From Cellulomonas timonensis (GTDB lineage: Bacteria; Actinomycetota; Actinomycetes; Actinomycetales; Cellulomonadaceae), in assembly GCF_900046455.1 (NCBI RefSeq), contig NZ_FCOT01000012.1, positions 310,001 through 374,000 of the forward strand: a stretch of 64,000 bases of DNA, given 5' to 3'. Below, one piece after another: positions 24,873 through 27,763 of the stretch. Made by a program: the position numbers and the translations under genes. Within the stretch, counting starts at the first letter, position 1, and every line of letters begins with the position of its first letter. The notes beneath the pieces were generated by a model. The model ran no database searches and was not told the DNA's origin. It worked only from the letters and a program-made list of their open reading frames with translations.

Positions 24873-26027
24873 ATGACGACGAACGAGCCCCTGGCGATCA
24901 CGGGCCTGCACACCTACATGCAGCGCGTCGGCAACCGGCCGCGGCTGCTGGTCCGGATCGACACCGACGCGGGCATCAGCGGGTGGGGCGAGGCGTACAA
25001 CCACGGCCCCGACCGCGCTCTCCCCCCGCTGCTGGACTACCTGTTCGACATCATCAAGGGCGCCGACGCCCGCCGCGTCGAGCACATCTCGGCAGTCCTC
25101 ATCCGCAGCACGCGGTTCCCCCCGGGCGCCCTGGGGCTGGCGGCCATCGCCGCGATCGACCACGCCCTGTGGGACATCGCGGGCAAGGCCGCGAACCTGC
25201 CGGTGTACATGCTGCTGGGCGGCAACGTCCGCGACCGCGTCCCGGTGTACTGCGGCCTGTACGACGCCCCGGACCCCGACGAGTGCCTGGACCGCGCGCA
25301 GGCGATGCACGAGGCCTTCGGGTTCACCGCCTTCAAGCTCAGCCCCTACCGGCGCCAGCCGCACGACACCCGGTGGGGAACCCTGTGCCGCGAGGTCGCC
25401 GACTACTTCGGCGAGCTGCGCTCGCGCGCCCCCCAGGACTGGGAGTTCGCGTTCGACGCCCACGCCAAGGTCTTCGAGCCGATCCGCGCCCTGCAGCTCG
25501 CGGACGCGCTCGCGCCGTTCGACCCGCTGTTCCTCGAGGAGCCGCTCCGCCCGGAGCACATCCCCGCCTGGGGCAGGCTGCGCGCGCAGATGCGTATCCC
25601 GCTCGCCACCGGGGAGTCGCTCTACTCCCCCTACGAGTTCCTCGCCCTGCTGAGCGCGGGCGGCGTCGACATCGCCCAGCCGGACATCTGCGTGGTCGGC
25701 GGGCTCACCCAGATGCGCAAGATCGCCACGATCGCCGACGCCCACTACGTCCCGATCGCGCCGCACAACCCGATGGGCCCGCTCGCGACGGCGCACAACG
25801 TGCACTTCGCGGCGGCGACCACGAACTTCGCCTACCTGGAGTACAAGCCCGACACCACCACGTGGTGCCCCGACCCGTACCTGCCGACCGACGGCCACCT
25901 CGACCTGCGCCCGGACCGGCCCGGGTGGGGCGTCGAGATCGACGAGGAGGCGCTCGCGCACGACGACTACGTGCACTGGGAGCGCCGCCTGCCCGTGCGG
26001 CCAGACGGGTCCGTCGCGTTCGTGTGA
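24873..26027 (+). CDS. Mandelate racemase/muconate lactonizing family dehydratase, DgoD-like
   Basis: The 384-aa protein starts at ATG 24873 (GAGAGGA five bases upstream), 47 nt after the GntR stop. This enolase-superfamily enzyme shows the galactonate-dehydratase-type active site: Asp195 with His197 (FAFDAHAKV), Glu222 or Glu223 (FLEEPL), Glu248 (ATGESLY) as metal ligands, and general-base His298 (IAPHNPMGPLATA). It should dehydrate an acid sugar to a 2-keto-3-deoxy acid, the substrate of the HpaI-type aldolase. The exact sugar acid is not readable from the sequence. Confidence 0.88.
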   Translation: MTTNEPLAITGLHTYMQRVGNRPRLLVRIDTDAGISGWGEAYNHGPDRALPPLLDYLFDIIKGADARRVEHISAVLIRSTRFPPGALGLAAIAAIDHALWDIAGKAANLPVYMLLGGNVRDRVPVYCGLYDAPDPDECLDRAQAMHEAFGFTAFKLSPYRRQPHDTRWGTLCREVADYFGELRSRAPQDWEFAFDAHAKVFEPIRALQLADALAPFDPLFLEEPLRPEHIPAWGRLRAQMRIPLATGESLYSPYEFLALLSAGGVDIAQPDICVVGGLTQMRKIATIADAHYVPIAPHNPMGPLATAHNVHFAAATTNFAYLEYKPDTTTWCPDPYLPTDGHLDLRPDRPGWGVEIDEEALAHDDYVHWERRLPVRPDGSVAFV

Positions 26028-26097
26028 GCGCGTCGGCGGCCACCGCCATCTGGGGCGGATGGCCGCCGCGCGCCCGCGACACTTCACCCGATCGGCT

Positions 26098-26143
26098 GTC
26101 AACTAATGATTGACGTCACGCCCTTCGTCAAGTCATAGTTGAC
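26098..26143 (+). promoter_or_regulatory. Two GTCAA-N7-TTGAC operators and promoter
   Basis: GTCAA-N7-TTGAC occurs at 26098-26114 and 26127-26143, centres 29 bp apart, inside a larger imperfect inverted repeat (26097-26144). TTGACG (26110-26115), an 18-nt spacer and CATAGT (26134-26139) form a promoter overlapping both sites, and the second site ends 2 nt before the start codon. Binding would block the promoter, so autorepression by the downstream HTH protein is likely. Confidence 0.7.
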
Positions 26144-26145
26144 AC

Positions 26146-26748
26146 ATGACCTCCGACGACACGCCCACCCAGCCCGGCGGAGACTCCCTCCGCGACCACC
26201 TCGCCCGCGCCCTACACGACGTCGACCCCACCCTGCGCGATCGCCTCACGCATGACGCCGACGCGCACCTCGAGCTCGTCGCGCTGGCCCGCGCCGCGCG
26301 CTCGGAGACCGACGTGCTGCTCGCCGCCGCCGTCCAGTCCGCGCGCGGCGCCGGCTGCACCTGGGAGCAGGTCGGCGCCGTGCTCGGCATGACCCGCCAG
26401 GCCGCCCAGCAGCGCTACGGGCAGCCGGACGCCTCCACGGCAGCAGCAGCCAGCGGCGGCTCGAAGGAGCGGCTCATCCTGCGCCCGCTGTCCGCGTTCA
26501 ACGAGATGTCAGTCCTCGCGCGCGCCGGCCGCTATGGCTGGCACTCGGTCGCCTACGGCCCGCTCTTCCACGTGCTCGAACGGGACGACCGCCAGTGGGA
26601 GCACACTCGGACCTTCGGCTCCCTGCCGGACGGCGGCGGCTGGCTGCCCGTCGGATCGGGCTGGGCGTGGTGGAGCTACTGGGCCCGCCCCACCGACCTC
26701 CCCGCCCTGCCCGGCGACCCGACGGCCAGCGAGCTGGTGCGGGGCTGA
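26146..26748 (+). CDS. HTH protein of unknown family, probable autorepressor
   Basis: The 200-aa protein probably starts leaderless at ATG 26146, six bases after CATAGT. Residues about 30-65 are helical and acidic. Residues about 65-92 (CTWEQVGAVLGMTRQAAQQR) are a sigma-like helix-turn-helix. The C-terminal half (about 105-195) is Trp- and Gly-rich (YGWHSVAYGPLFHVLE, WAWWSYWARP) and may be a ligand- or partner-binding domain. No family name is claimed. It stands alone, and two operators overlap its promoter. Confidence 0.7.
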   Translation: MTSDDTPTQPGGDSLRDHLARALHDVDPTLRDRLTHDADAHLELVALARAARSETDVLLAAAVQSARGAGCTWEQVGAVLGMTRQAAQQRYGQPDASTAAAASGGSKERLILRPLSAFNEMSVLARAGRYGWHSVAYGPLFHVLERDDRQWEHTRTFGSLPDGGGWLPVGSGWAWWSYWARPTDLPALPGDPTASELVRG

Positions 26749-26875
26749 CCTCCTCGCCAGCCGGTCCGCACGTGAGCTGGCGCTGGGCGATGCGCTGGGC
26801 CGCCCGCCGCCTGCGCGTGCGCTGACCACGGCACCGCCGGCAGGACGTCAGGCCCAGGCCATCACCGCGCCGGGA

Positions 26876-27763
26876 TCAGGCCTGGTCGACGCGGTCGAGG
26901 AACTGCAGCATCGCGGCGGCGAGGGCCTGCGGCGCCTCGAGGGCGACATAGTGGCCGACCCCGTCCAGCAGCACGGACTCCACGTCGCCGGTGGAGACCT
27001 GGCGGACAGTCCCCTCGGTGAACGGGCCCCCGAACCCGCCGACGGCGAGGATCGGGAGGTCCAGCGGCTGGGCGGCCGCGAGCGCCCGGAGCTCGTCGCC
27101 CTCGGCGAGCATCGACCGGTACAGGCCTGCGGCGCCGTCCCAACCGCGGGGCCGGGAGTAGGCGCGGGCGAACTCGGTGACGTCGTCGTCGGTGACGGCG
27201 CCATCGACGGCGGTCATCGACGGGAACGCCCAGTCGCCCAGGAGCGCGCGCTCGCGACCGGCGAAGAGCAGCTCGGCGATACCGGGCGCGGCGAGGACGC
27301 CGATGTGCCAGGACCCGCCGTGGGTGACGTCCGCGAACCCCTCGAGCCCGAATCCCGCGAGGCCCATCTCGATGGCGGTGAGGCTGGCGACGTCAGCGGG
27401 GCGCCCGGCGGCGAGGCGGAAGGCCGCGCCGCCGCTGATGTCCTGGGCGACGAGGTGCACCGGGCCGACGTCGAGGTGGCGGATGAGCTGGCGCAGATCC
27501 TCCGACGCGGTGGCGCTGTTGTGGTCATCCCCGGCGGGGGCGGAGTCACCGAACCCGCGCAGGTCGACGGCGAACACCCGATGGCGTGAGGCGAGGAGCG
27601 GGATGAGCCGGTGGAACGCCCACCACGTCTCCGGGAAGCCGTGGACCAGCAGGATCGGCGAGCCGGACTCCCCCGCCGACACGTAGTGGAGGCTGGTCCC
27701 GTTCACCCTTGCGGTGTGGTGGACGACGCCCGCGAGGGTGCGACCGGAGGCTGTGCTGGGCAT
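26876..27763 (-). CDS. Alpha/beta hydrolase, epoxide-hydrolase-like
   Basis: The 295-aa protein starts at ATG 27763 (GGGGAG upstream; an in-frame ATG at 27802 lies in the operator). It has the oxyanion motif HGFPETW (residues 41-47). The nucleophile elbow reads VAQDISGGA, placing Asp108 rather than Ser as nucleophile, as in epoxide hydrolases and haloalkane dehalogenases. VDLRGFGDS and the C-terminal His (VGHYVALEAPQ) complete the fold. It is divergent from a MarR gene, with two MarR-type palindromes between them, so it is probably induced by an aromatic or reactive compound. Confidence 0.86.
   Translation of the reverse strand: MPSTASGRTLAGVVHHTARVNGTSLHYVSAGESGSPILLVHGFPETWWAFHRLIPLLASRHRVFAVDLRGFGDSAPAGDDHNSATASEDLRQLIRHLDVGPVHLVAQDISGGAAFRLAAGRPADVASLTAIEMGLAGFGLEGFADVTHGGSWHIGVLAAPGIAELLFAGRERALLGDWAFPSMTAVDGAVTDDDVTEFARAYSRPRGWDGAAGLYRSMLAEGDELRALAAAQPLDLPILAVGGFGGPFTEGTVRQVSTGDVESVLLDGVGHYVALEAPQALAAAMLQFLDRVDQA

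Follow-up and report, generated by a model that had tools for sequence, protein, structure and literature searches.

The P0001 gene of Cellulomonas timonensis encodes a protein that is probably a self-repressor of the ClpC2 kind. Its helix-turn-helix (HTH) domain would act on twin operator sites at the gene's own promoter, and its DUF2812-like C-terminal domain would sense a ligand or a membrane partner. The operator layout is already published for ClpC2; the novelty is the swapped DUF2812 sensor. An earlier note on this DNA had described two GTCAA-N7-TTGAC sites, 29 bp apart, around TTGACG and CATAGT and ending 2 nt from the ATG, and this arrangement was recovered exactly in the sequence and in the promoter scan. 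The note had called the locus a compact autoregulated switch of a new type. Putative self-repression of the gene is well supported by sequence comparison, in which the twin stays with the gene in different genera and even in a second phylum. The new type is upheld only in part: the operator, its layout, and the leaderless start are published for ClpC2 (Taylor et al., 2023; PMC10030653), and RelI homologues fused to DUF2812 had already been mentioned in 2026 (PMC13284704).

Operator and Promoter of the P0001 Gene

P0001 (200 aa) is encoded at positions 26146..26748 (plus strand, stop codon included) of the window, that is, the whole stretch of 64,000 nucleotides analyzed here, and is predicted to be leaderless. 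Both operator sites are exact matches to GTCAA-N7-TTGAC on the plus strand: site 1 (GTCAACTAATGATTGAC) at 26098..26114 and site 2 (GTCAAGTCATAGTTGAC) at 26127..26143. Their start-to-start spacing is 29, and a gap of 2 nt separates site 2 from the ATG at 26146. The promoter scan found a single promoter-like site in the region 25950-26900, consisting of TTGACG (26110..26115, plus strand), a spacer of 18 nt, and CATAGT (26134..26139, plus strand), with 9/12 versus 0.0 in shuffles. The right half of site 1 supplies bases 1-5 of the -35, and the -10 lies within site 2, at site positions 8-13. The distance from the last T of the -10 to the A of the ATG is 7 nt, which suits a leaderless start. A start at the ATG would exclude a ribosome-binding site, since site 2 ends just 2 nt upstream of it.

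With one mismatch allowed, the operator pattern has 3 matches in the window versus 0.48 expected from shuffles, of which 3/100 reached 3. Exact matches in the 4.06-Mb Cellulomonas genome are limited to sites 1 and 2, and the reversed control pattern has 1 match. One-mismatch sites in the same genome number 41 versus 35 for the control; therefore, no wider regulon is claimed, and it is the exact pair that stands out. This genome contains one full-length member of the P0001 family and one partial match. No ORF was found between the operator and the ATG of P0001, so a RelS toxin gene directly upstream is absent.

A distant second HTH paralogue was found in the same genome (L002; G000:C12:938695-939090), with a one-mismatch site ~30 nt before its likely start. 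The ORF following it presumably encodes a PEP-utilising, rifampin-phosphotransferase-like protein.

Conservation of the Operator among Relatives

Relatives were gathered by protein similarity, not by the site, and the best 80 of 358 related stretches (genome contigs) were analyzed. They belong mainly to Streptomyces, Cellulomonas, Aeromicrobium, Cryobacterium, and Rhodococcus, and two of them are copies in one assembly. These relatives are mutually dependent, so that the counts given here overstate the number of events. Among these best 80, an exact twin was found in 73 loci, one exact site in 5, and none in 2. The twin spacing is 28 in 44 loci, 29 in 21, and 27 in 8. The gap between the last exact site and a start codon is 2 nt in 49 loci and 3 nt in 28, which makes 77 of the 78 site-bearing loci. 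The half-sites are fixed, and the central N7 and the flanks are variable. Of six relatives from another search (L003-L008), five have the twin and one has a single site.

The two sites of a twin differ at positions 8-9, where TA would begin a -10. Among distinct twins of the P0001 family, TA is present in 21/72 of the second sites versus 0/72 of the first ones; in ClpC2-like genes, these numbers are 51/52 and 1/52. Site 2 of the window has CA, not TA, at these positions. The presence of A alone at position 9 in the P0001 family (51/72 in site 2 versus 41/72 in site 1, p 0.12) is not significant; this per-twin count replaced a count of distinct single sites (34/38 versus 27/55).

HTH Domain and Comparison with ClpC2

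The only segment of P0001 that aligns with ClpC2-like proteins is formed by residues 47-97 (26284..26436, plus strand); in one hhalign comparison with 50 such proteins, it had prob 97.7 and E 2.2e-12. This segment also matches RelI. The solved chain nearest to P0001 is the RelI antitoxin (PDB 9sdc, E 8e-16), followed by ClpC2 residues 4-72 (8ada, E 0.008). In Pfam, Sigma70_r4_2 matched weakly in 8/47 family members (best E 6e-4) and not in P0001 itself. The full-length AlphaFold2 model is uncertain (pTM 0.48). It had zero Foldseek matches at E <= 0.001 and a best VIA-align Z of 4.5, and neither RelI (9sdc) nor 8ada was present among the fold-search matches listed, though both were found by sequence search.

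ClpC2 (Rv2667 and its actinobacterial homologues) is described as a self-repressor and a cyclomarin sponge in the available part of Taylor et al., 2023 (PMC10030653), from which the following is also taken. The ClpC2 operator, CGTCAAC-n5-GTTGACG, often occurs twice, lies over the -35 and -10, and ends 1-2 nt before the ORF; the leaderless transcript was inferred there, not mapped. Self-repression was demonstrated by EMSA and a reporter, cyclomarin A releases it, and dimerisation of the N-terminal domain matters for high affinity. The DNA contact was assigned to the C-terminal domain on the basis of an R185A/R189A mutant with weaker DNA binding; C-terminal arginine mutants also repress less. 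The crystallized pieces comprise residues 4-72 and 94-252, and the 72-residue sequence of 8ada stops just before the recognition helix; thus, the presumed reading helix is contained in neither structure. In the available part of another paper (PMC12913811), the autoregulation of ClpC2 is repeated with the DNA-binding part left unnamed. No link of the operators across the family was found in the literature on ClpC2, Clp N-terminal autorepressors, and DUF2812, which consisted mostly of non-subscription papers.

P0001 and ClpC2 share the HTH region and a GTCAAC-n5-GTTGAC twin over the -35 and -10 close to the ORF (2-3 nt here). In contrast, the Clp_N sensor of ClpC2 binds cyclomarin A, whereas P0001 has a divergent DUF2812 and no Clp_N, and in many of its relatives the operon starts with a membrane gene. 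Because the Clp_N domain is absent, binding of cyclomarin and derepression by it are not expected for P0001. The C-terminal DNA-contact model of ClpC2 would not carry over either.

Recognition Helix and Operator Type

The recognition helix of P0001, predicted in the AlphaFold2 model and used in a residue-operator table, comprises residues 84-91, RQAAQQRY (26395..26418, plus strand). Q88 is the residue that differs between the operator types. The table was obtained from 177 loci found by protein similarity, which yielded 129 distinct motif-fitting HTHs, the others being uncounted. For HTHs with Q after QAA, GTCAA/TTGAC was found within 900 nt upstream in 99/101, including 95 directly before the start codon. 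For those with F or Y after QAA, a site was found in 8/10; all 8 have at least one GTAAA-type half, and none is plain GTCAA/TTGAC. Plain sites were found for 7/16 HTHs with H in this position and for neither of those with R and L (one each). The F/Y rule was suggested by L013, L014, L021, and L248 themselves, L024 and L030 had been seen before tabulation, and the only new cases, L253 and L254, are hybrids. Since the F/Y proteins, which are either RelI-like or fused to DUF3887, are mutually related, the operator shift may be a single evolutionary change. On this evidence the operator type follows the HTH type, and residue 88 is a candidate for the cause. A search with the GTAAA twin alone found it in 2/394 genomes (control, 0), in both cases at QAAF/QAAY-type genes.

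In L014/L250, L013, L248, L253, and L254, which encode HTH-DUF3887 proteins, the ATG is separated by 2 nt from sites that are either GTAAA-N7-TTTAC or hybrids. The DUF3887 label comes from a Curtobacterium annotation and was given to the other proteins by likeness.

Proteins Encoded behind Twin Operators

A search for the twin by itself matched 106/394 class genomes (control, 0). From this search, 71 twins were examined (30 loci as returned and 40 picked from the list), and the HTH was called within 1.1 kb downstream by a profile built from the P0001 family (E <= 1e-4). The family HTH was found behind 66 of the 71 twins and was absent within this distance from 5. According to labels assigned by profile or motif, the partner domains at the 66 twins are Clp_N (55), DUF2812-like (6, the window included), and ClpX zinc finger (2); the remaining 3 proteins are short or broken. 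Pfam confirmed Clp_N in 50/50 ClpC2-like proteins scanned and zf-C4_ClpX, at 53 bits, in L043, the sole zinc-finger protein scanned. The zinc-finger protein has the same HTH as the P0001 family (prob 96.5).

Six plasmid records matched P0001. The plasmid-borne homologues of Deinococcus sp. QL22 and D. ficus, which belong to another phylum, are ~43% identical to P0001 over 96% and 89%, and have three and two exact sites, respectively; in Deinococcus sp. QL22, the last site contains TATAAT. Two Streptomyces plasmids have exact twins, and a third one has one exact and one mismatched site. The sixth record, a Curtobacterium HTH-DUF3887 protein, matched by its HTH only and has no GTCAA site. The operator thus travels with the gene into Deinococcus, which argues against a host regulator as its reader.

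The tblastn search of P0001 against phage records gave zero matches. Among 34 viral contigs with the twin, the family HTH was found within 1.1 kb in 10 and was absent within this distance in 24. In nine of the 34, only 2-3 nt separate the twin from the start of an ORF (76-121 aa) that encodes the HTH and nothing else; these ORFs represent four kinds, with several near-copies. Since the same twin precedes proteins with unrelated C-termini and HTH-only ORFs, the comparison points to the HTH, not the C-terminal domain, as the part that contacts the operator.

On a Streptomyces plasmid (L246), genes annotated for a class III lanthipeptide lie at ~2 kb from an HTH-DUF2812 pair.

C-Terminal Domain and Leader Membrane Gene

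The earlier note had read P0001 as an HTH followed by a C-terminal domain rich in Trp and Gly, and the models and alignments agree on these two separate parts. The same note knew no family for the C-terminal domain. P0001 indeed has zero matches above the cut-off in Pfam and NCBIfam, with nothing at all in the latter; profile comparison, on the other hand, places the C-terminus with DUF2812. The structure prediction and profile check suggested for residues 105-200 gave a confident model when this part was modelled alone (pLDDT 91.1, pTM 0.83), zero Foldseek matches at E <= 0.001 (best VIA-align Z 4.3), and a divergent DUF2812. A well-known repressor family, which would speak against the note, was not returned; the relative is one characterised repressor with a different sensor.

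The Trp-rich domain was assigned from the model and hhalign to residues 107-186 (26464..26703, plus strand). Against nine DUF2812 domains, it had prob 92.8 and E 4e-7 over ~70 columns, and against the DUF2812 of L144 alone, E 3.9e-7 (hhalign). Pfam DUF2812 matched weakly in 4/47 family members (best E 0.038, below the cut-off) and not in P0001. By these profiles, the C-terminus of P0001 is a divergent DUF2812 without a close solved fold. The domain is conserved in the P0001 family, and its profile is unrelated to the ClpC2-like proteins (prob 0.3); Pfam Clp_N is absent in the family.

Domains of PF11193 were found at 12 places, corresponding to 10 intact ORFs, one broken, and one unread. In 10/10 of the intact ORFs, two hydrophobic helices follow DUF2812 in the same chain. 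In contrast, P0001 has its domain fused to the HTH and ends shortly after it, with no membrane helices in the same chain, and in its family the membrane part is either encoded separately or lacking. Among the best 80 of 358, a small ORF lies between the operator and the HTH gene in 50/77 relatives; two hydrophobic segments were found in 47 of these 50 leaders, so that a two-helix membrane gene comes first in 47/77. The HTH gene is the first one, without a leader, in 27/77, as in the window, and the operator and the C-terminal domain are kept there. Pfam gave only matches below the cut-off for five leader proteins. The membrane part is thus fused in the DUF2812 family and encoded by a neighbouring gene in the HTH family, which suggests joint action. 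A gene tree of 85 rows (L068 and L107 excluded) gave 4 changes of the leader gene, of which at least 3 were forced; this number was discarded, as L065, whose second site has one mismatch, had wrongly been scored as having a leader. The tblastn search of the DUF2812 protein against plasmids gave zero matches.

Short leader ORFs without hydrophobic segments were observed in L106, L114, and L084; L106 and L114 retain ends similar to the ends of longer leaders, as though an in-frame deletion had removed the membrane part. The DUF2812 gene of L144 follows one for a PadR regulator (77.7 bits in Pfam). The Bacillus cereus pair BC4206-BC4207 (PadR and a membrane protein, enterocin AS-48 resistance) was considered as a possible link to DUF2812 and rejected, as BC4207 has four membrane segments according to the available part of its description (PMC2774856).

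Comparison with RelS-RelI

In the available part of a 2026 paper (PMC13284704), RelI homologues fused to DUF2812 are mentioned and called typically stand-alone. In contrast, most HTH-DUF2812 genes in the sample analyzed here are not stand-alone. The same part of that paper describes RelI (Rv2664) as sequestering the RelS toxin, with a toxin-first gene order, and for RelS-RelI of Mycobacterium tuberculosis reports no inverted repeats upstream and doubts DNA binding (PMC13284704). The RelI HTH is the closest to that of P0001 in the PDB, yet a C-terminal domain is lacking in RelI.

A RelS-like ORF precedes the HTH in five loci that were inspected (L281, L283-L286); three of these RelS calls were made by eye. 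For L281 and L284, the ORF was compared with the RelS chain of 9sdc and matched it at E 2.6e-25 and 2.7e-30, respectively. The RelS-RelI-like operon of L249/L281 has an exact GTAAA-type twin just before a 78-aa ORF, whose start codon abuts site 2. One exact GTCAA site and one mismatched site were found in each of L283-L285, and two mismatched ones in L286. The HTH locus of L287, perhaps from a mycobacterial host, has no site and, by eye, no RelS-like ORF in front.

Proposed Mechanism and Alternatives

According to the proposed mechanism, an HTH dimer of P0001 would bind each GTCAA-N7-TTGAC palindrome. As the twin sites cover the -35 and -10 of the predicted leaderless promoter, bound P0001 would shut off its own transcription. 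The DUF2812-like domain would be the sensor, responding to a ligand or, in relatives, to the two-helix membrane protein encoded next to it. Binding of the ligand or partner would weaken the DNA contact, and P0001 would then be made in bulk, together with the membrane partner where present. By analogy with ClpC2 and cyclomarin, and speculatively, release could be caused by a hydrophobic or peptide antibiotic or by membrane damage. Repression draws its support from the comparison and from the ClpC2 experiments, and release is the more conjectural half. Points against the mechanism are the C-terminal DNA contact reported for ClpC2, the presence of TA in only 21/72 second sites, the twins with no family HTH gene nearby (5/71, and 24/34 viral contigs), and the loci with one exact site or none (5 and 2 of the best 80).

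A RelI-like antitoxin role for P0001, with the leader membrane ORF of its relatives as the toxin and the window copy as an orphan after toxin loss, appears unlikely. RelI is its best solved relative (E 8e-16), the leader-first order is as in RelS-RelI, the leader overlaps the start of the HTH gene in 5/6 relatives inspected for overlap, and an operator of this kind also occurs in the RelS-RelI-like operons of the sample. However, the leaders resemble two-helix membrane proteins (47/50), not RelS, the operator and C-terminal domain persist in the 27/77 relatives without a leader (among the best 80 of 358), and the C-terminal domain conserved in the P0001 family is absent from RelI. The two helices in the same chain of all 10 intact DUF2812 ORFs suggest a working partner instead. 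It is very unlikely that the C-terminal domain reads the operator, as proposed for ClpC2 from the arginine mutants with weaker DNA binding and repression (available part of PMC10030653): the same operator is found before HTH-only proteins and before proteins whose C-terminal or partner domains are unrelated, and the presumed reading helix is missing from both ClpC2 structures.

Reading of the sites by another host regulator, the HTH protein having some other role, seems slightly more improbable still. The sites do overlap a promoter usable by any repressor, and 5 of the 71 twins examined precede other genes. Nevertheless, the genome has one full-length and one partial family member and no other exact site, the operators accompany the gene into Deinococcus, and the operator type changes with the HTH type. 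HTH regulators can also activate, but activation of its own promoter by P0001 is scarcely to be expected, because the sites sit on the -35 and -10 themselves and ClpC2 represses on the same layout (available part of PMC10030653).

Beyond self-repression by P0001, we consider, with slightly more doubt than belief, that one HTH head, an operator code, and interchangeable partners form a system of leaderless self-repression through several sites that extends from Actinobacteria to Deinococcus plasmids and viral contigs, and in which the DUF2812 of the window would sense an antibiotic or membrane damage. In such a code, QAAQ would read GTCAA/TTGAC, and QAAF and QAAY would read GTAAA/TTTAC or hybrids. 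The partners would include ClpC-like and ClpX-like decoys, DUF2812, DUF3887, and the RelS toxin, and in relatives DUF2812 would sense together with the two-helix membrane partner. If so, the published DNA-binding site of ClpC2 is misassigned, and operons of the RelS-RelI type have an operator. The ClpC2 paper, in its available part (PMC10030653), presents a sponge with a DNA surface in the drug-binding domain, whereas the picture here is one head and operator with swapped sensors. Two questions thereby become accessible to direct testing: where ClpC2 contacts DNA, and whether pairs of the RelS-RelI type are self-regulated. Searching whole genomes for twin sites placed 2-3 nt ahead of a start codon is also a cheap way to find more sensors of stress or antibiotics.

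Additional Loci with the Operator

In L043 (1501-1922) and L048, the twin operator is followed by an HTH fused to a ClpX C4 zinc finger; such proteins could be the ClpX equivalent of ClpC2 and serve as decoys for a compound directed at ClpX. Twin operators of L180 and L181 adjoin ORFs that resemble FAD-binding monooxygenases (for L181, 49 bits to Pfam FAD_binding_3) and are possible targets in trans. On the other side of the L181 twin is an ORF that we take to resemble the swivel domain of rifampin phosphotransferase. In L050, a twin was found 2 nt before the GTG of an ORF judged by eye to be methyltransferase-like, and a second twin in this genome precedes a family HTH gene. Three successive operator sites at 28-bp spacing were found in L163 and L243, the ClpC2-like ORF being broken in L163. 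An HTH protein beginning with MADHATHDAQ, probably from Streptomyces hosts, lacks the conserved site in L015 and L031; in L009, L012, L016-L019, L023, L025, L026, and L029, it has one conserved GTCAA-N7-TTGAC further upstream.
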